Positions 52,677 through 63,996 of a stretch of DNA of 64,000 bases are shown in pieces (positions within the stretch are counted from its first letter, which is position 1; each line of letters opens with the position of its first letter). The DNA comes from Armatimonadota bacterium. GTDB lineage: Bacteria; Sysuimicrobiota; Sysuimicrobiia; Sysuimicrobiales; Kaftiobacteriaceae. The notes under the pieces are model-generated. The model had not been told where the DNA came from. It did not search any database and saw only the letters and a list, made by a program, of their open reading frames with translations. The DNA is taken from contig JAVHLZ010000004.1 in assembly GCA_031081675.1 (NCBI GenBank), forward strand, positions 1-64,000, written 5' to 3'. The position numbers and the translations under genes are program-made.

Positions 52677-53129
52677 TCAGCGTGTGGGCTCCTGCGCGTT
52701 CCCGGATCTGCGCCGCATCGACCGGCGGACGTACGCCGCTGCCAGCGCCGTCCCCGCCAGCAGGGCCGCTGCAGGCGTCAGCCACACCACCCACAGGAGG
52801 CCCCGCCGCGGAGGCTCCAGCAGGATCCACGGGCCGTAGCGGTCCACGAAGTAGGCCACGATCTGCTCCTCACTCTCTCCCCGGGCCAGCCTGTCCCGGA
52901 TCAGGGCCCGCATCTGGGCGGCCAGCTCGGACGGCGAGTCGGCCACGCTCTCGTTCTGGCACACCGGGCACCGCAGCCGCGCCGCGATCGCCTGCGCCCG
53001 CGCGTCCAGATCCTGGGCTCGCGCCATCCCGGAGACGACGCTGCCCAGGAGGGCGGCGATCGCGAGCGTCGTCTTCGCCCGAGCCGCCAGACCCCCGCTC
53101 CCGCGGCCTGCGATGGTCATGCCTGACAC
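52677..53129 (-). CDS. ccmH: Cytochrome c maturation protein CcmH
   Basis: 150 residues. Signal peptide (about 17-38), the redox motif LRCPVCQNESVADS with Cys54 and Cys57, a three-helix bundle and a C-terminal membrane helix (about 112-135). Keeps apocytochrome CxxCH cysteines reduced. The E. coli protein has an extra TPR part (CcmI), absent here. Last gene of the ccm operon, 28 bases after ccmG. Confidence 0.92.
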   Translation of the reverse strand: MSGMTIAGRGSGGLAARAKTTLAIAALLGSVVSGMARAQDLDARAQAIAARLRCPVCQNESVADSPSELAAQMRALIRDRLARGESEEQIVAYFVDRYGPWILLEPPRRGLLWVVWLTPAAALLAGTALAAAYVRRSMRRRSGNAQEPTR

Positions 53130-53157
53130 CTTCCTCCACCACCCCCCGCCCGCACCA

Positions 53158-53790
53158 TTACCGATCGCCGGGCCGGCCGGTGCCCGGGGGGCGGTGGTCG
53201 GAGGCGGGGATCAGCGGCTCGATGCGCGGGGCCAGCAGGTCCTCGGTCACCGCCCCCGCGTGCTTGAAGACGATCCGTCCCTGCCGGTCGATCACGTAGG
53301 TTTCGGGCACGCCGACCACGCCGAAGTCGATGGCGATGGCCCCCGAGCGGTCCATCCCCACGGGAAACGTCTGCCCGAAGCGGCGCAGGAAGGCCCGGGC
53401 TGCGGCCTCGGTGTCCTGGATGTTGATGCCCACGACCACCACGCCCCGGTCCCGATAGCGCTCCCACACGCGCTGCAGGTGCGGGGCTTCGTCGTAGCAG
53501 GCGGGGTAGCACCAGGATGCCCAGAAGTTGACCACCACCACCCGCCCGCGCAGGTTCTGGGAGCGCAGCAGGCCTCCGTCGAACAGCGGCAGGGTGAATG
53601 CCGGGGCCGGACGCCCGACCAGGGGGGACGGCAGCCGCCGGGGATCGCGGCGCAGCCCCGCCCCCAGCACCGCCAGCAGGCCCACCACGACGGCCAGCGC
53701 CACCCACGGCCACCGGATCCGCCGGGTCGGGGGCGACCCCGCCGGCCGGAGGTGTTCGTCGGGGCGCCCTACGGGCGGCGCGGCGGCCAC
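53158..53790 (-). CDS. ccmG: CcmG/ResA/DsbE-type thioredoxin with a CxxxC motif
   Basis: 210 residues from a GTG at 53790 inside the ccmF 3' end, with GGGGGAGG upstream. Membrane anchor (about 28-46), then thioredoxin fold: PAPAFTLPLFDGG, VVVVNFWASWCYPACYDEAP, VVVGINIQDTEAAARAFL and GVPETYVIDRQG. The active site is C-YPA-C (Cys94, Cys98), three residues between cysteines where ResA/CcmG have two. Otherwise a normal CcmG. Expected to reduce apocytochrome c thiols outside the membrane. Confidence 0.88.
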   Translation of the reverse strand: MAAAPPVGRPDEHLRPAGSPPTRRIRWPWVALAVVVGLLAVLGAGLRRDPRRLPSPLVGRPAPAFTLPLFDGGLLRSQNLRGRVVVVNFWASWCYPACYDEAPHLQRVWERYRDRGVVVVGINIQDTEAAARAFLRRFGQTFPVGMDRSGAIAIDFGVVGVPETYVIDRQGRIVFKHAGAVTEDLLAPRIEPLIPASDHRPPGTGRPGDR

Positions 53791-55718
53791 AGGGCCAGTC
53801 CTCCCCCGACGATCATGATGGCCCCGCCGGCCCAGATCCACGACACCAGCGGGCTGATCACCACCCGCAGGACCACCGTCTGCGCGCCCGGGTCGAATCC
53901 CAGCAGTACCACGTACAGGTCCTCCCGCCAGGTGGACCGCACCCCGGGCGTCGGGACGGGGGTCCGGGCGTGGCGGTAGAAGTTCTGGGACGGCCGCAGG
54001 ACCGCCGCCGGCGCCTGATCGCGGGAGGCGGCCAGGGCCGTGCCGCCGTCGGCCACCGACACCGGGGCCCACACCACCAGGCGGTCCGGATACGTTCCCG
54101 CCCGCAGCTCGTCCACCCGCAGGGCGTACGGCCCCACGCGGATCACCTCGCCCACCCGCAGCGCGCGGTGCACCTCCAGGCGAGCAGCCTGGGAGCCTAC
54201 AATGCCCGCCACCACCACCGCCATCCCCAGATGGACCACGTATCCGGCGTAGCGGTGCCGGTGGCGGAGGACCAGCTCGGCCATCGCCGCCGGAACCGGC
54301 CGTCCGCCCCGGTGCAGGGCCCGCACGCCGCGGGCCAGCTCGTCCAGCTGGGCCAGGGCCACGAACGCCACCGCCCCCACCGCCACGACGGCGACGGGCG
54401 CCCGCAACCCGGCGGCCGCCGCGGCGGAAGCGGCGACGGCGGCGAGGCCGCCGGTTCGCGCCAGGCGGCGCAGGTCTGCGGGGGACGACCGTCCCCAGCG
54501 CAGGACGGTGCCGGCGCCCATCAGGGCCAGCAGCACCAGCCCCAGGGGGGTGATCGCGCGATTGAAAAACGGCGGCCCCACGGTGACCTTCTGCCCGGTG
54601 GCCACGTCCACCGCCAGCGGGAACACCGTGCCCACAAACACCGTCGCGGCCATCGCCAGCAGGAGCGCGTTGTTGAAGACCATCAGGGCGTCGCGGGATG
54701 CCACCGACGCCACGCTCCCGGCGTCCCGCACGTCCGGCACCCGCCAGGCCAGCGCGGCGAGCGTCCCCACGGTGACGGCCGCCAGGCCGGCGAGCAGCGC
54801 GGGCCCGATCGCCGACTGGGTGAAGGCGTGCACCGAGGCCAGCACGCCGCTGCGGGTGACGAACGTGCCGAACAGCGTCAGCCAGAACGTCGCCGCAGCC
54901 AGGACCACCGTCCAGGCCCGCAGCACTCCCCGCCGGACCTGGGCCATCGCCGAGTGCACCAGCGCGGTGGCCGTGAGCCACGGCAGCAGGGCGGCGTTCT
55001 CCACCGGATCCCACGCCCAGTAGCCTCCCCATCCCAGGACGTCGTAGGACCACCGGGCCCCCAGGACCAGCCCGGCGGTCAGCGCCGTCCACGCGCCCAG
55101 CGTCCAGGGCCGGCTGACGACCACCCAGTCTTCGGCATCCCGGCCCGCCAGCAGGGAGGCGAGGGCAAACGCATAGGGTACCGCCATGCCCACAAACCCC
55201 AGGTAGAGCAGGGGAGGGTGCAGGATCATCAGCGGGTGGTTCTGCAGCAGGGGGTTCAGTCCGGTGCCGTCGGCCGGTGGCGTCGGCACCCGCGCAAAGG
55301 GATCGGCCGGCCCCACCAGCAGGAGCAGGAAGAACGCGCACAGGCCCAGCAGCACGCCCACCGTCCCGCGCCACAGGCGGGGCGCTGGCGCGCGGGTGCG
55401 GACGGCCACTCCTGCGGTGAGGGCGGCCAGCAGCCAGGTCCACAGCAGCAGGGACCCTTCCAGCGCCCCCCACAGGGCCGCCACCCGGAACGCCAGCGGG
55501 GTGGTGCGGTTGGTGGTGGCGGCCACGTAGCGGATGCTGAAGTCCCCGCCGATCAGGGCCCACTCCAGGAGCGCCACCGCACCGGTGACCGCCACCGCCA
55601 TGCCCGCCGCCAGCGGGACGACCCGCCGCCCGCCCCGCGGCCGGGCGCACGCCGCCAGGCCGGCCACCGCACAGGCCGCCGCGGCCACCAGGCTGATCCA
55701 TCCTCCCAGCGCGATCAC
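53769..55718 (-). CDS. ccmF: Heme lyase CcmF
   Basis: 649 residues with about 15 membrane helices. The heme-handling WWD domain is intact: GWGGYWAWDPVENAALLPWL near 240. NPLLQNHPLMILHPPLLYLGF and GTFVTRSGVLASVHAF are CcmF landmarks, and the final part carries the periplasmic domain and last helix. Attaches heme to apocytochrome c together with CcmH. Overlaps ccmE by four bases and ccmG by 22. Confidence 0.95.
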   Translation of the reverse strand: MIALGGWISLVAAAACAVAGLAACARPRGGRRVVPLAAGMAVAVTGAVALLEWALIGGDFSIRYVAATTNRTTPLAFRVAALWGALEGSLLLWTWLLAALTAGVAVRTRAPAPRLWRGTVGVLLGLCAFFLLLLVGPADPFARVPTPPADGTGLNPLLQNHPLMILHPPLLYLGFVGMAVPYAFALASLLAGRDAEDWVVVSRPWTLGAWTALTAGLVLGARWSYDVLGWGGYWAWDPVENAALLPWLTATALVHSAMAQVRRGVLRAWTVVLAAATFWLTLFGTFVTRSGVLASVHAFTQSAIGPALLAGLAAVTVGTLAALAWRVPDVRDAGSVASVASRDALMVFNNALLLAMAATVFVGTVFPLAVDVATGQKVTVGPPFFNRAITPLGLVLLALMGAGTVLRWGRSSPADLRRLARTGGLAAVAASAAAAAGLRAPVAVVAVGAVAFVALAQLDELARGVRALHRGGRPVPAAMAELVLRHRHRYAGYVVHLGMAVVVAGIVGSQAARLEVHRALRVGEVIRVGPYALRVDELRAGTYPDRLVVWAPVSVADGGTALAASRDQAPAAVLRPSQNFYRHARTPVPTPGVRSTWREDLYVVLLGFDPGAQTVVLRVVISPLVSWIWAGGAIMIVGGGLALWPPRRP

Positions 55719-56104
55719 GGAGACGGGGGAGCGTACTGCTCCGAGTGCTTGACGATCACCGAGCGGGCCACGAAGACGCCGTCGGACCCGTAGATGCCCT
55801 CCACGACCGCCCCCTGGCCTTCGGTGAACAGGTCGGGGGGCACGCCCCGGTACAGGACCGGGACCGCGGCGCGGCCGTCGGTCAGCACGAAGCGCAGCTC
55901 CAGGGTTCGGGGATCAAACGATCGCGACCCCGGCTGCACCTGGCCGCCCAGCCGCAGGGGCCGGCCCACCGCGTCCGGGCCCCGGTCCAGCAGCTCGCCG
56001 GGGGTGATGTAGTAGACCACCGCCCCGCGGAGCCCTCCGATGACGAGGTAGACCAGGGCGCCGACCACCACCGCCGCCGCCAGCATCAGGCGCGCGCGCC
56101 TCAC
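55715..56104 (-). CDS. ccmE: Heme chaperone CcmE
   Basis: 129 residues from the GTG at 56104. N-terminal anchor (about 5-23), OB-fold body (VYYITPGELLD, LRLGGQVQPGS, LRFVLTDG, VPVLYRGVPPDLF, GQGAVVEGIYG) and the heme-binding HxxxY as HSEQY (His120, Tyr124). Shuttles heme from CcmC to CcmF. Confidence 0.95.
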   Translation of the reverse strand: MRRARLMLAAAVVVGALVYLVIGGLRGAVVYYITPGELLDRGPDAVGRPLRLGGQVQPGSRSFDPRTLELRFVLTDGRAAVPVLYRGVPPDLFTEGQGAVVEGIYGSDGVFVARSVIVKHSEQYAPPSP

Positions 56105-56226
56105 CGCGTCTCCTCCCCCCTGCCGGGGCGGGTGCGGCGCAGCCGCCGGCGCAGGTGGACCACGTAGAGCACCACCGCCGCCGCCACCACGCCGTAGGCC
56201 AGGGCGATCCACACCGCCGGCGTCAT
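56101..56226 (-). CDS. ccmD: CcmD
   Basis: 41 residues: one helix (about 4-24, VWIALAYGVVAAAVVLYVVHL) then a highly basic tail, the CcmD pattern. Small stabiliser of the CcmC-CcmE complex. Identified by topology and by four-base overlaps with ccmC and ccmE. Confidence 0.88.
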   Translation of the reverse strand: MTPAVWIALAYGVVAAAVVLYVVHLRRRLRRTRPGRGEETR

Positions 56227-56876
56227 CCGGCCTCCTCGGACTCTTCCCGGCGCGCCACCCGCACGCGCAGGAGCAGCAGGTAGGCGAACAGGACGGTGAA
56301 GGCCAGCAGGCTCAGCAGCAGCGTCAGGAGCATCGGCGGCGCCAGGGCGACCTCTCCACGGGTGATGGACGGAGGCTGGTGCAGGGTCCGGAACCAGACC
56401 ACCGAGTAGTGGATGAGGGGGACGTCTGCCGCCCCGAGGACGCCCACCACCGCGCCCAGCCGGGCTCCCCGCTGCGGATCGTCGGCCAGCGCCCGCACGA
56501 GCAGGGCGCTGCAGTAGATCAGGAACAGGACGGCCGTGGTGACCAGGCGCGCATCCCACGTCCACCACACCCCCCACACGGGGCGCCCCCAGATCGAGCC
56601 GGTGGCCAGCGTGAGGCCCGTGAACAGGACCGCCAGCTCGGTGGCGCTGCGGGTCAGGGCGTCATAGCGCGCCTCACGCCTCCACAGGTACAGGACCCCG
56701 CCGACCAGGGTGACGCCCACCGCCAGGTACGCCACCCAGGCCGTGGGCACATGGACGTACATGATGCGGACGTAGTCGCCCTGAAAGGCGTCCGGCGGCG
56801 ACGCCACCAGGCCCGCATAGGCCGCGGCGCCCAGCAGCAACACGGCCGCACCGCCCAGGACGGCAGACACCGTCAT
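56223..56876 (-). CDS. ccmC: CcmC heme-handling membrane protein
   Basis: 217 residues with six helices. YVRIMYVHVPTAWVAYLA and the WWD motif WGRPVWGVWWTWDARLV with flanking conserved His (HVP, and HYSVVWFRTLHQPPS). Transfers heme to CcmE. Overlaps ccmB and ccmD by four bases. Confidence 0.95.
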   Translation of the reverse strand: MTVSAVLGGAAVLLLGAAAYAGLVASPPDAFQGDYVRIMYVHVPTAWVAYLAVGVTLVGGVLYLWRREARYDALTRSATELAVLFTGLTLATGSIWGRPVWGVWWTWDARLVTTAVLFLIYCSALLVRALADDPQRGARLGAVVGVLGAADVPLIHYSVVWFRTLHQPPSITRGEVALAPPMLLTLLLSLLAFTVLFAYLLLLRVRVARREESEEAG

Positions 56877-57532
56877 ACCTCGTCCATCACCGCCTCAAAC
56901 AGGATCGGACAGGCCAGCACGAACACCGCGACGCTGCCGGCCAGCACCCCCGGCCACACGCCTGCCGGCGCGCCCGCCAGGACGGCCTCGGTGAGCCGGA
57001 TGCAGGCCAGCACGGGCGGCAGGGCCAGGGGCAGCATCAGCAGGGGCGCCAGCAGCTCCCGCCCCCGCACGTGCAGCAGCAGTCCGGCCACCAGCGTTCC
57101 CAGGGCCGCCAGGGCGGCCACGCCGGCCCCGCCCACCGCCGCCAGCTGCGGCAGGCGCGCGGCCACGGGGAGCCCGAACAGGAATGCAGCCAGGATCAGC
57201 AGGACGGCCACCACACCCCCCAGGAGGACCGCGAGCGCGGCGGCTTTGCCCCAGTACAGGTGCTCGCGCCGGCCCGGGTACAGCAGCAGCGCCTCCAGCG
57301 CCTGCTGGTCAGCCTCGGCCTGGGTGATCCGCGGGATGCCCACCGCCGCCGCGCACGCTGCCGACACCCACACCACGGCGGCGGCGCGGGCGGGTTCGGG
57401 CCCCAGCGCCACGCCCAGGACCAGCACCAGCAGCAGGCCCGCCAGGAGCATGGTGAGGGCGACGGCTCGTCCTCGCCACTCCGCGCGCAGGTCCTTGCGG
57501 GCCACCGCCGCCGCCCGCGTCCACCCGCTCAC
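56873..57532 (-). CDS. ccmB: CcmB ABC permease
   Basis: 219 residues from the GTG at 57532, six membrane helices. AVARKDLRAEWRGR start and EALLLYPGRREHLYWGK are typical CcmB. With CcmA it forms the ABC unit that releases holo-CcmE from CcmC. Four-base overlaps with ccmA and ccmC. Confidence 0.93.
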   Translation of the reverse strand: MSGWTRAAAVARKDLRAEWRGRAVALTMLLAGLLLVLVLGVALGPEPARAAAVVWVSAACAAAVGIPRITQAEADQQALEALLLYPGRREHLYWGKAAALAVLLGGVVAVLLILAAFLFGLPVAARLPQLAAVGGAGVAALAALGTLVAGLLLHVRGRELLAPLLMLPLALPPVLACIRLTEAVLAGAPAGVWPGVLAGSVAVFVLACPILFEAVMDEV

Positions 57533-58221
57533 GGGCGGCCTCCCTGCGCGGCGAACGCCGGCGCACCGGGGGCCAGGGATCGGAGCGCGGCGGGCTCCCC
57601 GGCCTGCAGCACCAGTTCCGCATCCGCCAGCGCCCGGGCGCGGTCGCGGTCGTGGGTGGCGATCACGGCACTGCCTCCCCGGGCGACGACCTCCGCCACC
57701 ATGGCGGCGACCAGCGCGGCCCCCTCGGGATCCAGCCCGGCGTAGGGCTCGTCCAGCAGCAGCAGCCGCGGCTGGCCCAACCAGACCCGCGCCAGCGCCA
57801 GCCGGCGCTTCATGCCCTGGCTGAAGGTCCGGACGAGCCGGTCGGCGGCGGCACCCAGACCCACCCGGCGCAGCCAGGCGTCCACGTCCGTCTGCGGGCG
57901 CCCCCACAGGGCGGCTGCGAACTCCAGATTCTCGCGGGCCGTGAGCAGCTCGTAACCGCCGAAGGCGGCGCCCACCAGCCCCACCATCGGGCGCACCCGG
58001 TCCGCCTGCCTGACCAGGTCGCATCCGAAGACGGTGCCCCCGCCCGCCGTGGGTCGCAGGGCGGTGGCCAGCAGGCGCAGCAGCGTCGTCTTGCCCGACC
58101 CGTTGGGACCGGAGACCAGCAGCACCCGGCCGGCAGGCACGGTCAGGGTGATGCGGCGCACGGCCCAGACCGGGCCGAACCGCCGTCCCAGGTTCACCGC
58201 GCGCACGGCCGGGACGTCCAC
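57529..58221 (-). CDS. ccmA: CcmA ABC ATPase
   Basis: 230 residues from a GTG at 58221. Walker A GPNGSGKTT, signature FSQGMKRRLALAR (CcmA-type FSxGxxRR), Walker B LLLLDEPYAGLD, switch ATHDRD. First gene of the eight-gene ccm operon, divergent from the cytochrome c gene; the 165 bases between them hold the presumed promoters. Confidence 0.94.
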   Translation of the reverse strand: MDVPAVRAVNLGRRFGPVWAVRRITLTVPAGRVLLVSGPNGSGKTTLLRLLATALRPTAGGGTVFGCDLVRQADRVRPMVGLVGAAFGGYELLTARENLEFAAALWGRPQTDVDAWLRRVGLGAAADRLVRTFSQGMKRRLALARVWLGQPRLLLLDEPYAGLDPEGAALVAAMVAEVVARGGSAVIATHDRDRARALADAELVLQAGEPAALRSLAPGAPAFAAQGGRP

Positions 58222-58386: not shown

Positions 58387-59289
58387 ATGGGGGGTCGGAT
58401 CGTCGCCGTCGCCATCGTCGTGGCCGGCGCTCTTTTTTTGGCCGGCTGCCAGCCCGCGGTGGACATCTCCCGGGCGGGCGTGGAGGCGGCGCGGGAGCTG
58501 CCCCCGGCGCCGCCGGATCGACCCCTGCTGCCCGTGGACGCCCGGGGCCAGCCCATCCGTCCCTCGGCCGAGGTGGGCGCCCAGGTGTTCAGCCGGGCGC
58601 GGTGCGACGTCTGCCACGGCCCTCAGGGACGCGGCGACGGGCCCGCGGCGGCGGGTCTGCGGGCGGAGCAGAAGACGCTGCTGCACGACCTGGCCCGCCT
58701 GGTGGGGATCCGCCTGCAGCCCGAGCGGCTGCCCAGCCGCCCGGCCAACTTCCGCAACGTGGTGGCGATGCGCCTGAACAGCCCGTTCAGCATGTACGAG
58801 ACCGTCACCCGGGGGCGCCCGCACACGGCGATGCCGGCGTTCGGCCCGCGCCCGGCCTACGGCGCCACGTCCTTCGGCGTCCGGCTGACCGACGCGGAGC
58901 GCTGGCACGTGATCTTCTTCGAGTGGGCGTTCGCCACCACGCCCGAGGAGGTGGCGCGGGGACGCGAGCTGTACGAGACGCGGGCCATCGAGGTGGGCGG
59001 GCGCGCCCTGACCTGCGCGTCCTGCCACGGGGTGCGGGGGGACGGCCGGGGGCCGGAGGGCGTGCGGCTGAGCCAGCGGCTGTGGACGTGGGCCCGGGGA
59101 CAGGGCCCGGGGATCTTCACCGACTTCAACCTGATGGCCCAGCGCAAGCCCAGCGACCTGTTCCAGGCGGTCGTGGACGGACGGGGAGAGATGCCCGCCT
59201 ACCGGGGGAAGCTCACCGAGGACGAGATCTGGGCCCTCGTGAACTACATCTATACGTTCGTCTACGACTATCCGGGGCTGCGCCGGTAG
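58387..59289 (+). CDS. Diheme cytochrome c lipoprotein
   Basis: 300 residues. Lipobox FLAGC (Cys21), then two cytochrome c domains with CDVCH (73-77) and CASCH (210-214), and MPAFGP / MPAYRG as likely methionine axial-ligand regions. A high-potential carrier on the outer face of the membrane, probably taking electrons from the Rieske protein encoded next. Needs the divergent Ccm system for maturation. Confidence 0.88.
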   Translation: MGGRIVAVAIVVAGALFLAGCQPAVDISRAGVEAARELPPAPPDRPLLPVDARGQPIRPSAEVGAQVFSRARCDVCHGPQGRGDGPAAAGLRAEQKTLLHDLARLVGIRLQPERLPSRPANFRNVVAMRLNSPFSMYETVTRGRPHTAMPAFGPRPAYGATSFGVRLTDAERWHVIFFEWAFATTPEEVARGRELYETRAIEVGGRALTCASCHGVRGDGRGPEGVRLSQRLWTWARGQGPGIFTDFNLMAQRKPSDLFQAVVDGRGEMPAYRGKLTEDEIWALVNYIYTFVYDYPGLRR

Positions 59290-59388: not shown

Positions 59389-60081
59389 ATGGAGAACCCG
59401 CCGACGCGGATGATGGAGCGGCGCCGGTTCCTGCGCCTGGCGACCACCGTTCCGGCGCTGGCCGCCCTGGCCGGGCTGGTGTCGCCGCTGCTGCGGCTGC
59501 TCAAGCCCAACGTGGACAAGTTCCGCATCTACGCCCCCACGGCGCACGACACCCCCCAGGGCGAGGCCATCGTGGCGGCCACCCTGTCGGAGGTCGCCCG
59601 CCCCTGGGACTTCAAGTACTTCGTGTTCACCCAGAAGTATCCCCAGTACACGCCCCAGGGATTCAAAGCCGCCGTCGTGCCGGGGGTGGTGGTCCGCCTG
59701 CCGCGGAAGATCCGTCTGTACGATCCGGCCACCGGCCGCGGCCCTCTGGCGTGGGCCCGGGACATCGGCAAGACCCCCCGGGTCACCGACAGCGACCTGG
59801 TGGTGTTTTCCCGGATCTGCCCGCACCTGGGCTGCATCTTCAACTACGTCCCCGACTACCGGGAGATCACCGCCGGCTACGGCGGCTACGTGCCGCCCCC
59901 CGAGCGCCGGCACGCCCTGATGGGGTGTCCCTGCCACCTGAGCATCTACGACCCGGCCGACCCGCAGGTCCCGGGGAGGGTCCTCTCGGGTCCGGCGCCG
60001 CGCCCCCCGCGCACGTTTCTGTTTGAGGTGCGGGGCGGGGACATCGTCATCACCGACGTGGAGCCGGGGGGAATCGCCTGA
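59389..60081 (+). CDS. qcrA: Rieske iron-sulfur protein of a cytochrome b complex
   Basis: 230 residues. Tat-type N-terminus ERRRFLRLAT and one helix (about 15-36). [2Fe-2S] ligands are CPHLGC (Cys144, His146) and CPCHLS (Cys180, His183), with Cys149 and Cys182 as the disulfide pair. An insert between the two motifs (DYREITAGYGGYVPPPERRHA) is longer than in mitochondrial Rieske proteins. Takes electrons from quinol at the Qo site and passes them to cytochrome c. Confidence 0.93.
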   Translation: MENPPTRMMERRRFLRLATTVPALAALAGLVSPLLRLLKPNVDKFRIYAPTAHDTPQGEAIVAATLSEVARPWDFKYFVFTQKYPQYTPQGFKAAVVPGVVVRLPRKIRLYDPATGRGPLAWARDIGKTPRVTDSDLVVFSRICPHLGCIFNYVPDYREITAGYGGYVPPPERRHALMGCPCHLSIYDPADPQVPGRVLSGPAPRPPRTFLFEVRGGDIVITDVEPGGIA

Positions 60082-60090
60082 GGTCTGACC

Positions 60091-61251
60091 ATGTGGGAGA
60101 CGGTGCGCGACTGGCTGCGAGAGCGCCGGGAGAAACTGGACCTGTTCGACGAGACCCTGGTGGCCCGGCAGGGCAATCCCTTCTACCTCCTGGGGCCCAT
60201 GCTGTACTACTTCTGGCTCATCACCGTCGTCACCGGGGTCGTCCTGATGCTGTGGTACGAGCCCACCACCACGGGCGCCTACAGCTCCATTGAGCGCATT
60301 CAGAACGAGATCGGCCGCACCGGCCTGACCGTGTTCGGGCGCCCGGTGGTCCTGGGCGGGCTGATCCGCGGCCTGCACAAGTACGGCGCCGACGCCCTCA
60401 TCACCGTCATCTTCCTGCGCCTGTACCGCATGTACTTCCTGGGAGAGTACAAGAAGCCGGGCGAGCTGTCGTGGATGCTGGCCTTTGCCGGATTGATCCT
60501 GGCCATGATCTCCGGGATCACCGGCTACCTGCTCATCTGGAACCAGCGGGCCTTCTGGGCCGCCAAGGTAGTCCTGACGGTCCCGGTGTACTTCGACGAG
60601 ATCCCGGTCCTGGGCCAGTTGAAGTTCGGCTCGATGATCGCCTACCTGTTCCTGGGCGGGCCGGCCATCGGCCAGGCCACCATCACCCGGTTTTACGCCA
60701 TCCACTTCGGCATCTCCCTGGTCCTGCTGGTCCTGGTGGAGGTGCTGTTCTTCCGCACCCGCCGCAAGCGCATCAACATGTCGCTGACGCCCCTGGCGGT
60801 GTTCCTGGTCATGCTGGTGGTCATCTCCCTCCTCCTGCCAGCCGAAAGCGGCCGGCGGGCCGATCCCACGCGGACGCCCCTGCCCATCCTGTCGGACTGG
60901 TACTTCCTGGCCCTGTACCAGTACGTGAAGTATACGCCGCCGTTGTGGGCGGGGCTGGGCCCCGGGCTGCTCATCGGCTTCGGCATGCTGGTGCCCTTTC
61001 TGGACCGCAGCCGGGGCCGCCGGCCCCTGGAGCGGCCGTTCTTCTTCGTGGTGGGCGTGCTGGCGCTCACCTACTTCCTGGTGTTCACGGCGCTGATCCT
61101 GTTCAACATCGCGGTGATCGAGCGGGATCCGTTCATCATCATGCTGGTGACGCTGGCGGTTCTGAGCCTGGGCCTGGCGTGGGAGATCCGGTACCGCCGC
61201 CGCCGGGCGGCGGCCCCCGCTGCGCCAGCCCGGGCGCCCGCCCGCGGGTAG
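60091..61251 (+). CDS. Cytochrome b subunit missing one heme-ligand pair
   Basis: 386 residues: a cytochrome b6-like N-terminal half and a subunit-IV-like C-terminal half in one chain (about 8 helices). His96 (LIRGLHKYG) and His205 (RFYAIHFG) remain as one heme pair. The second pair is absent: the position 14 after His96 is Arg110 (FLRLYRMY), and the one 14-15 after His205 is Leu/Phe (EVLFFR). The PEWY quinol motif reads SDWY (268-271). It should hold one b heme only, unless another ligand is used. Confidence 0.88.
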   Translation: MWETVRDWLRERREKLDLFDETLVARQGNPFYLLGPMLYYFWLITVVTGVVLMLWYEPTTTGAYSSIERIQNEIGRTGLTVFGRPVVLGGLIRGLHKYGADALITVIFLRLYRMYFLGEYKKPGELSWMLAFAGLILAMISGITGYLLIWNQRAFWAAKVVLTVPVYFDEIPVLGQLKFGSMIAYLFLGGPAIGQATITRFYAIHFGISLVLLVLVEVLFFRTRRKRINMSLTPLAVFLVMLVVISLLLPAESGRRADPTRTPLPILSDWYFLALYQYVKYTPPLWAGLGPGLLIGFGMLVPFLDRSRGRRPLERPFFFVVGVLALTYFLVFTALILFNIAVIERDPFIIMLVTLAVLSLGLAWEIRYRRRRAAAPAAPARAPARG

Positions 61252-61255
61252 GCCG

Positions 61256-61501
61256 ATGCGGCTGCTGTCCATCGCGGTGGCGTTCGTGGCGGCCCTGGCG
61301 GCCCTGTCGGCGGGGTGGGCGGCGGTGCAGGCGGCGTGGGCCGCCCCCACCCCGGGCGCCCTGGCCCGGGTGGCGGGGTACGCGCTGGTCTTCGCGGCGG
61401 CGTTTCTGTACCTGGGGTTCTGGGTGTACGCGGCGGACCGCGCGGCGGGCAGGGTCCGCCGGCGCATCGGCCTGTATGAGCGCTTCCTGGCCGGCCGGTA
61501 G
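61256..61501 (+). CDS. Small two-helix membrane protein in the cytochrome b operon
   Basis: 81 residues: helices about 4-28 and 38-60, then a basic tail DRAAGRVRRRIGLYERFLAGR. Four bases after the cytochrome b stop. No family recognised; likely an accessory subunit of the complex by position. Confidence 0.65.
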   Translation: MRLLSIAVAFVAALAALSAGWAAVQAAWAAPTPGALARVAGYALVFAAAFLYLGFWVYAADRAAGRVRRRIGLYERFLAGR

Positions 61502-61560: not shown

Positions 61561-61761
61561 ATGCGGAACGCGCATCTGACCGGCATCATCGCCCTCAGCG
61601 CCGTGGCCGTGGCGGCCGCGGCCGGCATCGTCTACGGGGAAGCCACCGACCGGTGGTACCTGGGCGGCGCCCTGGTGGGCGTGCTGCTGATCGCGTACGC
61701 GGGCATCGTGCTGCTGCTGCGTCGGATGGGCCTGATCGGGCCCCGGAGGGCTGAGCGGTGA
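61561..61761 (+). CDS. Small two-helix membrane protein in the cytochrome b operon
   Basis: 66 residues: helices about 5-25 and 33-53 with GEATDRWYLGG between them and a basic end MGLIGPRRAER. Ribosome site GGAGGGGACGGG just upstream. Overlaps the next gene by four bases (GTGA). No family recognised; probable accessory subunit. Confidence 0.65.
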   Translation: MRNAHLTGIIALSAVAVAAAAGIVYGEATDRWYLGGALVGVLLIAYAGIVLLLRRMGLIGPRRAER

Positions 61762-62951
61762 GCGTCGCGGACGTGCGGCCCAGCCGCTACGGGCGGGTGA
61801 TGACCGCGCTGTTGCGGGCCACCCTGCGGGTGGACACGTGGATCCACCGGATCGTGCCCACCGACTACAACCCGCTGTACTACACCGGCGGCCTGGCCAA
61901 CCTCTTCCTGCTGGTCCTGGTCCTCTCGGGTATCTTCCTGTTCTTCTACTACGAGGCCAGCCTGGAGGGCGCGTTCGCCTCGGTGCGCTACCTGACCCAG
62001 GCGGTCCCCTACGGGGGGCTGCTGCGGGGGGTGCACCGCTACGCCGCCGACGCCTTCGTGGTGGCCATCCTGCTGCACCTGTTCCGCAACTGGTTCACCG
62101 ACCGCTACCTGTTCTCCCGGGATAACCCGTGGATCTCGGGGATGATCCTGCTGCTGTTCGGGGGCTTCATCGGGGTCACCGGCTACCAGCTGGTGTGGGA
62201 TGAGCGGGCCCAGGTCCTGACCGCGCTGTTCGCGCGCCTGCTGCGCAGCATCCCCGGGGTGGGCGGCGCGCTGGCCGAGCTGTTCTTGGGGGGGCGCGGG
62301 GTCAGCGATGCCACCCTGGTGCGGATGCTGTTCCTGCACATCGGGCCCGCCTCGGCCCTGTACCTGCTGCTGTGGTGGCACTACCTGCGGCTGCGCCACC
62401 CCAAGATCTGGCCGCCGGCGATGTGGGTGCTGTTCTGCGTGGGGCTGGTCTTCCTGCTGGCGGGCCTGATTCCCGTGGGCGCCGAGGCCATCCCGCCGGC
62501 GGCGCCGGCCGCGCGGCCCACCCGGTTCGCCCTGGATGTCTTCTTCCTGTGGCCGTTCTGGCTGCTGAACTGGCTGCCGCCCCGCGGGGTCGTGGCCCTG
62601 GGGGTGGTCCTGTTCACCGCCGGCCTGGCCATCCCGTACCTCAGCCGGCGAGAGCACCCCGCGGCCATGGGGGTGCGCCACGCCGGCGTGGCCCAGGTGA
62701 TCGACGGCAACTGCACCGGATGCGAGCTGTGCTACTACGACTGTCCCTACAACGCCATCGTCATGGTGCCGTCTCCCGCCCCGGGGCTGACCAAGGCGGC
62801 GGCGAACCGCACCCTGCTGGCGGTGGTGGTGGAGTCCCGGTGCGTGGAATGCGGGATCTGCATCGGCGCGTGCCCCTTTGAGGCGCTGGAGCTGCCCCGG
62901 CTCCTGGAGCGGGACGTGCTGGCGCAGGTGGCGGAGGCGGTGTCGGCATGA
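61758..62951 (+). CDS. Cytochrome b fused to a 2x[4Fe-4S] ferredoxin domain
   Basis: 397 residues from a GTG. Residues 1-300: cytochrome b-like membrane part with both heme pairs, His93/His107 (GVHRYA, LLHLFR) and His194/His208 (FLHIGP, WWHYLR). Further helices contain a degenerate quinone region (ALDVFFLWPFWLLNW). Residues 310-397: ferredoxin with CTGCELCYYDCP (319-329) and CVECGICIGACP (362-372), enough for two [4Fe-4S] clusters on the cytoplasmic side. The fusion joins quinone chemistry to low-potential iron-sulfur transfer. Overlaps both neighbours. Confidence 0.9.
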   Translation: MSVADVRPSRYGRVMTALLRATLRVDTWIHRIVPTDYNPLYYTGGLANLFLLVLVLSGIFLFFYYEASLEGAFASVRYLTQAVPYGGLLRGVHRYAADAFVVAILLHLFRNWFTDRYLFSRDNPWISGMILLLFGGFIGVTGYQLVWDERAQVLTALFARLLRSIPGVGGALAELFLGGRGVSDATLVRMLFLHIGPASALYLLLWWHYLRLRHPKIWPPAMWVLFCVGLVFLLAGLIPVGAEAIPPAAPAARPTRFALDVFFLWPFWLLNWLPPRGVVALGVVLFTAGLAIPYLSRREHPAAMGVRHAGVAQVIDGNCTGCELCYYDCPYNAIVMVPSPAPGLTKAAANRTLLAVVVESRCVECGICIGACPFEALELPRLLERDVLAQVAEAVSA

Positions 62952-63397
62952 GCGAGCCCCGGATCGTGGGGTTTGTGTGCGACTGGAGCGTGGACCTCCG
63001 GCCCCTGGTGGACGGCGGCCGGCTGCGGGATCTGCCCGGGGTGCGGATCATCCGCGTCCCCTGCTCGGGTTTCGTGCGCCCCGCGTGGCTGGAGGAGGCC
63101 CTCGTCCGGGGCGCCGCCGGCGCCTTCGTCACCGGGTGTCCGTACGGGGACTGCCTGAACCGCGAGGGCAACTTCCTGATGCGGGATCGGATCGACCAGC
63201 TGCAGCGCCGGCTGCAGCGCCGCAAGATCGACCCCGCCCGGGTGGCCATGCTGGCCCACGGGCTGCACGACGGGCGGGCGTTCCTGGAGGCGGTGCGCGC
63301 CTTCGCGGACCGGGTGGCCGCGCTGCCGGCTCCGGCCCGGCCGGGCCGCCCGGCGGTGGCGCAACCGGCCGGCGCGCCGGAGGGGGAGGGGACGTGA
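62948..63397 (+). CDS. MvhD/FlpD-family iron-sulfur electron transfer protein
   Basis: 149 residues. Follows the MvhD/FlpD (methyl-viologen-reducing hydrogenase delta) pattern: VGFVCDWSVDL, VRIIRVPCSGFVRPAWL, TGCPYGDCLNREGNF and MRDRIDQLQRRL. Cys11, 39, 64 and 69 are kept; the second Cys of the usual CxxC start is Ser14. In methanogens and acetogens this protein carries electrons between hydrogenase or formate dehydrogenase and HdrA. No Hdr or hydrogenase gene is in the window. A Pro/Ala tail follows residue 128. Four-base overlaps on both sides. Confidence 0.85.
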   Translation: MSEPRIVGFVCDWSVDLRPLVDGGRLRDLPGVRIIRVPCSGFVRPAWLEEALVRGAAGAFVTGCPYGDCLNREGNFLMRDRIDQLQRRLQRRKIDPARVAMLAHGLHDGRAFLEAVRAFADRVAALPAPARPGRPAVAQPAGAPEGEGT

Positions 63398-63501
63398 GCC
63401 GGGCGCCGCTGCGGGTGCACCTGCTGTACCTGTTGTTCTACCTGTTCTGGTTCCTGCTGCTGACGTTCATCGCGTCCTTCGGGCTGGTGGCCGAGGCGTA
63501 G
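63394..63501 (+). CDS. 35-residue single-span membrane peptide
   Basis: From a GTG overlapping the MvhD-like stop by four bases: SRAPLRVHLL, then one hydrophobic helix rich in Leu, Phe and Tyr to FGLVAEA. The size, coupling and topology are those of small subunits of respiratory complexes (PetL/PetN-like), but no family match is claimed. Confidence 0.6.
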   Translation: MSRAPLRVHLLYLLFYLFWFLLLTFIASFGLVAEA

Positions 63502-63618: not shown

Positions 63619-63996
63619 ATGGGCAGGAGGATGGGGCGGTGGGCGGTGCTGGCCGGCGTGGCGGTGATCGTCGCGGGCTGCGGGGGCGGTGGTCCCCGGG
63701 GCGGGCAGCCGGCGGCGCCGGCGGAGGGAGCCATCACCGTCACCGAGACCGAGTGGGCCATCCGGTTTCCCGGCACCCCCCTCAAGGCCGGGAAGGCCAC
63801 CCTGGTCATCAGGAACGAGGGCACCATCGAGCACAACTTCGTCATCCAGGGGCTGGGCGTGGAAGTGGACGCCATCCCCCCCGGCGGGTCCCGGCAGGTG
63901 ACCGTGGACCTGCGGCCGGGGACGTATGAGGTGGTCTGCAACCTCCCCGGCCACCTGGAGGCCGGCATGAAGACGACCATCACCGTCGCTCCCTGA
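63619..63996 (+). CDS. Cupredoxin lipoprotein
   Basis: 125 residues. AAGGAGGGAG precedes the ATG. Lipobox VAGC (Cys21), a Gly/Pro linker, then a small blue-copper fold with ligands His72 (EHNFVI), Cys107, His112 and Met117 in the CNLPGHLEAGM block. A membrane-tethered outer-face electron carrier, possibly an alternative partner of the Rieske or diheme cytochrome c, or feeding a terminal oxidase outside the window. The window ends just after its stop. Confidence 0.88.
   Translation: MGRRMGRWAVLAGVAVIVAGCGGGGPRGGQPAAPAEGAITVTETEWAIRFPGTPLKAGKATLVIRNEGTIEHNFVIQGLGVEVDAIPPGGSRQVTVDLRPGTYEVVCNLPGHLEAGMKTTITVAP

Follow-up and report, generated by a model that had tools for sequence, protein, structure and literature searches.

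The window, that is, the whole 64,000-nucleotide stretch of Armatimonadota bacterium DNA analyzed here, carries near its end an operon of seven genes, all on the forward strand. The first encodes a diheme cytochrome c (58387..59289) with two CXXCH motifs, a LAGC lipobox and matches to Pfam Cytochrome_CBB3/Cytochrom_C. It is followed by a Rieske [2Fe-2S] protein (59389..60081), which has an N-terminal RR signal/anchor and the cluster motifs CPHLGC...CPCHLSIYD; its match to TIGR01416 (E 4.8e-11) falls under the curated cut-off, and both cluster motifs are found in 35/36 orthologs. As in bc complexes, the Rieske gene is adjacent to a cytochrome b gene, here called A (60091..61251, 386 aa). Next come two small proteins with two transmembrane (TM) helices each, one of 81 aa (61256..61501) and one of 66 aa (61561..61761), the stop of the latter overlapping the start of a second cytochrome b, here called B, which is fused to a 2x[4Fe-4S] ferredoxin (61758..62951). 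The last gene encodes a FlpD/MvhD [2Fe-2S] protein (62948..63397). The diheme cytochrome c, Rieske protein, A, B, and FlpD were all present in 21/21 compared operons, and the entire seven-gene order is retained in a genome of another phylum (G151, locus L087), which is among those 21.

Several neighbors deserve mention. A 35-residue hydrophobic ORF overlaps the FlpD stop (63394-63501) and is possibly an additional small subunit. Just downstream lies a Cupredoxin-like protein (63619-63996; Pfam Cupredoxin_1), to which the complex might pass electrons; 7/21 operons have a similar gene there. On the minus strand, Ccm-type cytochrome c maturation genes (52677-58024) adjoin the operon, and they are nearby in many relatives too. 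The operon is followed, just beyond the window end, by genes for a polyprenyl diphosphate synthase and for TatC (L086:6033-9570), the synthase being near the operon in 19/21 cases; these two genes fit the needs for quinone and for Rieske export, respectively. As markers of quinone type, MqnA/D gave no match in the genome, and MenD gave a match only below the cut-off.

Cytochrome b A matches PF00033/PF00032 and could be aligned to the cytochrome b6 structure 1vf5_A (E 8.7e-32; profile E 9.8e-43). The bL ligands are both retained, His96 (60376..60378) corresponding to b6 His86 and His205 (60703..60705) to b6 His187. In helix B, the position of the first bH ligand, b6 His100, is occupied by Arg110 (60418..60420); in helix D, the stretch Glu217-Val-Leu219-Phe220 (60739..60750) covers the second, b6 His202, and contains no histidine, the equivalent residue being Leu219, or Phe220 when the 15-residue spacing of b6 is imposed. 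The first-pass annotation had read the same four residues from the letters alone and had assigned the missing pair to the bH (bn) heme, and the structural alignment bears out both statements. It had also asked for an alignment that might place other histidines at the empty positions. None can do so, because the whole protein contains exactly two histidines, both of them bL ligands, and no other is available for bH. Cysteine is absent altogether, which makes a covalent heme cn impossible in A; at the position of Cys35, which binds heme cn in b6f, A orthologs have L/I/T/A/S/Y and B orthologs have Tyr or Leu. The Qo motif of A reads Ser-Asp-Trp-Tyr (residues 268-271; 60892..60903).

We considered whether the small TM proteins might supply a bH ligand and rejected them, as the first has no histidine here and 0 to 3 among orthologs. 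AlphaFold2 models of A and B, built with 19 sequences each, had a mean pLDDT of 53 and 49, respectively; these were too poor and were set aside.

Orthologs of A were found in 39/43 genomes of the CSP1-3/Sysuimicrobiota order, the named GTDB genomes matched being CSP1-3, ANGP1, and HRbin32; CSP1-3 is now named Sysuimicrobiota (PMC11604079). Among 343 sampled genomes outside the order, a strong match was found in G151 only. Two further orthologs (G386 and G387) belong to the phylum of G151, and a further sample, 385 genomes centered on that phylum, yielded no more. Ligands were counted on 36 complete sequences of the order plus the three from the second phylum, 39 in all. Every one has Arg at the first bH position (36/36 and 3/3) and F/Y/L/M/W/V, never His, at the second, and the Qo motif is S/A-D-W-Y in 39/39; its Asp-Trp-Tyr, the bL ligands, and many helix residues are invariant across the two phyla. 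Glu217 is found in 36/36 of the order's sequences; of the second phylum, G151 has it, and G386 and G387 do not. Of 46 control cytochromes b (27 + 19), 45 have His as the first bH ligand and one has Gln there; the other three ligand positions are His in all 46. A different cytochrome b, in genome G056 (L114:761-1798), has Gln at the first bH ligand (FLFIVLAQLIAK), with the other three histidines intact. The same substitution had been suggested as something to look for in relatives that carry the ferredoxin-fused cytochrome b, and there it is, invariant in A. Sequencing error or a pseudogene as the cause of the ligand loss, the first of which had been named as a possible refutation, is thus ruled out by a state that recurs in 39 of 39 orthologs.

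Cytochrome b B presents the complementary picture. Its four heme histidines (His93, 107, 194, and 208), already noted at first reading, are present in 37/37 orthologs, and 33 of these have an extra His after helix D. What is altered in B is the Qo motif, here LDVF, in which the Tyr of the PEWY-type motif is replaced by Phe or Leu in 37/37 orthologs. The position that we take, from cd1 helix numbering, to be that of Rhodobacter capsulatus Gly158 holds a bulky Leu, Ile, or Val in every readable B ortholog, a small residue (Ala or Ser) in A, and mostly Ala in the controls. Judged by sequence, the Qo site of B is degenerate, leaving bH present in a protein with no normal quinol-oxidizing site, although the Asp of the motif is still present and the Trp often so, which counts against this reading. 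Of the four histidines for two b hemes that mark a Rieske/cytochrome b complex, A has two and B has four, and only the two proteins taken jointly fit the description.

Homology and hydropathy suggest that B has six helices (A to F) and begins, like b6, in the cytoplasm, which would place the ferredoxin on the cytoplasmic side, adjoining bH. The ferredoxin domain (62688..62897), with eight Cys, matches residues 571-643 of HdrA2, and the FlpD protein (Pfam FlpD, E 3.9e-26; Cys11/39/64/69) matches residues 646-771, so that the two are collinear with consecutive parts of the HdrA2 C-terminus. No readable ortholog lacks any of the eight ferredoxin Cys or the four FlpD Cys; for FlpD this means 34/35, the remaining one being masked by N. 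The genome has no other FlpD-family match. A full HdrA or HdrA2 was looked for there without a match; of a flavin-based bifurcating Hdr complex, with its HdrA flavoprotein, the operon thus has the C-terminal ferredoxin and FlpD parts only. Nor does the operon encode a soluble partner of FlpD, which counts against fixing the exit route or the direction of flow. Another protein resembling the C-terminal ferredoxin region of HdrA2 is encoded elsewhere in the genome (L057:17119-18000), beside the second Rieske/cytochrome b cluster described below.

Trees were built on the four-helix domain (A, n = 39; B, n = 37). A and B form separate clades, each with members from the second phylum (IQ-TREE UFBoot 96 for A and 100 for B), and A is sister to B (FastTree 0.998; IQ-TREE UFBoot 100). 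B was found in 37/43 genomes of the order. Two genomes have A without B (G009 and G038), A lying at a contig end in both, and four genomes of one genus have neither. The simplest account of these sequences would be reciprocal loss after a single duplication that preceded the presence of the operon in both phyla; the complete operon may also have been transferred from one phylum to the other.

The genome has other respiratory equipment. It encodes heme-copper oxidases and complex I, together with a second Rieske/cytochrome b pair (L057:8176-9686, contig C27) that has all four heme His and PEWY. A multiheme cytochrome c comes after this pair, and the vicinity also has a Ccm-type cluster along with a molybdopterin oxidoreductase whose subunits include Fe-S and NrfD-like ones. 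Given the four-His pair, an ordinary Q-cycle need not rely on A, and with the oxidases and complex I also present, the A/B complex is probably specialized.

We propose that the operon encodes an obligate A/B heterodimeric Rieske/cytochrome b complex in which quinol is oxidized at A and an electron leaves through B, and we regard this as probable. The ligand loss, the apparent complementary Qo loss, the sister clades, the co-occurrence, and the operon conservation are all read from the sequences; the heterodimer, its heme content, the bL-bL crossing, the exit route, and the direction of flow are what we infer. In outline, a cytochrome b would have been duplicated and the copies would have lost opposite halves, A its bH and B its Qo. 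Quinol would be oxidized at the Qo site of A, beside the Rieske protein. The first electron would pass to the Rieske protein and on to the diheme cytochrome c, its likely acceptor. The second, low-potential electron would go from A-bL across the dimer to B-bL and B-bH. From there, it would most likely leave on the cytoplasmic side, reaching a soluble acceptor by way of the ferredoxin/FlpD arm in a quinol-based bifurcation, with a possible additional exit at B from bH to quinone. In the fuller form, the complex would be a natural obligate heterodimer with bL-to-bL transfer as the sole route from Qo to the ferredoxin/FlpD exit, and bifurcation would yield a low-potential soluble reductant; this version we put forward more tentatively, at somewhat under even chances. 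The first-pass annotation had supposed that electrons might flow through the second cytochrome b, and this finds support, as an interpretation, in the invariant loss in A, the complementary Qo loss in B, the sister clades, and the shared operon. A pairing of Arg110 with Glu217 that fills the empty heme pocket of A is a guess.

Separate A homodimers and B homodimers are compatible with the sequences. In an A homodimer the electron on bL would have nowhere to go, and in a B homodimer electrons from quinol would have no normal way in, so the pair makes sense as a heterodimer, and the gene content argues for this over a homodimer of one cytochrome b. Within a heterodimer, a near-normal Q-cycle is conceivable, with B-bH reducing quinone at the Qi site of B and the ferredoxin/FlpD arm serving in regulation or as a side branch. 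The ligands for both hemes in B and the extra His after helix D (33/37) are in keeping with it, but the conservation of the arm's Cys in all readable orthologs suggests a main role for the arm, and we think this arrangement rather unlikely, at about one chance in four. The flow might also run backward, from a cytoplasmic donor through FlpD and the ferredoxin to B-bH and on to quinone at B, while A and the Rieske protein oxidize quinol, which would make the complex a ferredoxin:quinone reductase coupled to quinol oxidation. FlpD, identified here by its Pfam match, typically connects soluble donors to Hdr complexes, and the placement of the ferredoxin suits entry as well as exit. Hydrogenases and the Wood–Ljungdahl pathway have been reported in some CSP1-3 families (PMC11604079). 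On the other hand, no donor enzyme is found among the conserved operon genes, and complex I, which the genome has, would give a higher energy gain from low-potential electrons; we judge this direction slightly less likely still. Since reverse flow and the near-normal Q-cycle both assume the heterodimer, their probabilities overlap with that of the reading we favor.

Two further accounts do without a partnership in electron transfer. A might work independently of B, with a quinone in the vacated bH space, held by Arg110, taking an electron directly from A-bL. The invariance of Arg110 and a vacant heme pocket able to accommodate a quinone would suit this, yet Glu217, near Arg110, could equally fill the pocket through a salt bridge with it, and both the reciprocal Qo loss in B and the strict co-occurrence are left unexplained, which makes it improbable. 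That A is degenerate, or purely structural, might be thought from its two missing heme ligands, but the constancy over two phyla of its bL ligands, Qo Asp-Trp-Tyr, and many helix residues renders this the least credible account of all.

The proposed heterodimer can be set against known systems. With bc1 and b6f complexes, the operon shares a Rieske protein, the cytochrome b fold, the bL ligands, the Qo Trp-Tyr (in A), and a c-type cytochrome; it differs in having two different cytochromes b, A without bH ligands and B without the Qo Tyr, in the ferredoxin that replaces the last helices in B, and in the lack of a Cys for heme cn. The nearest likeness is the engineered R. capsulatus/sphaeroides fusion bc1 of the WB-BN type, in which one half has no working Qo and the other no bH branch (PMC4330944). 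There, to probe the debated passage of electrons between monomers, G158W, the mutation that inactivates Qo, was placed in one half and H212N in the other, connecting Qo and Qi through the two bL hemes only, and the results support bL-bL transfer (PMC4330944). That complex is a laboratory construct with near-identical halves (PMC4330944), whereas here there are two natural genes and a ferredoxin exit. The anammox complexes Kuste4569-4574 and Kustd1480-1485 also combine Rieske/cytochrome b with soluble cytoplasmic Fe-S partners, and the bifurcation to a soluble acceptor proposed for them is a precedent for diverting the low-potential electron (PMC12954380). They have a flavin NAD(P) oxidoreductase, both b hemes, and a modeled homodimer (PMC12954380), in contrast to the ferredoxin/FlpD, two b paralogs, and absence of a flavoprotein seen here; no anammox-type FAD/NAD(P) oxidoreductase subunits were found among the conserved operon neighbors. 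The HdrA2/MvhD (FlpD) module has the ferredoxin and FlpD in the same order as they occur at the HdrA2 C-terminus; in the operon, this module lacks the HdrA flavin domain and is attached to a membrane cytochrome b. A search of the open-access literature for a natural heterodimeric cytochrome b, or one without bH, gave engineered cases only, which is weak evidence of absence. A Nitrospira match was rejected as a natural precedent, as it concerns cytochrome bd.

Whether electrons cross between bc monomers in normal catalysis is disputed (Swierczek 2010 versus Hong, Victoria and Crofts 2012, as cited in PMC5627346), and the evidence on inter-monomer transfer to date was obtained with engineered mutants. 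In this operon, evolution appears to have produced a cross-inactivated dimer and to have maintained it in two phyla or more. Confirmation would mean that bL-bL transfer takes place physiologically and suffices for turnover, and the ferredoxin exit would allow quinol bifurcation to a soluble carrier to be tested beyond the anammox bacteria.
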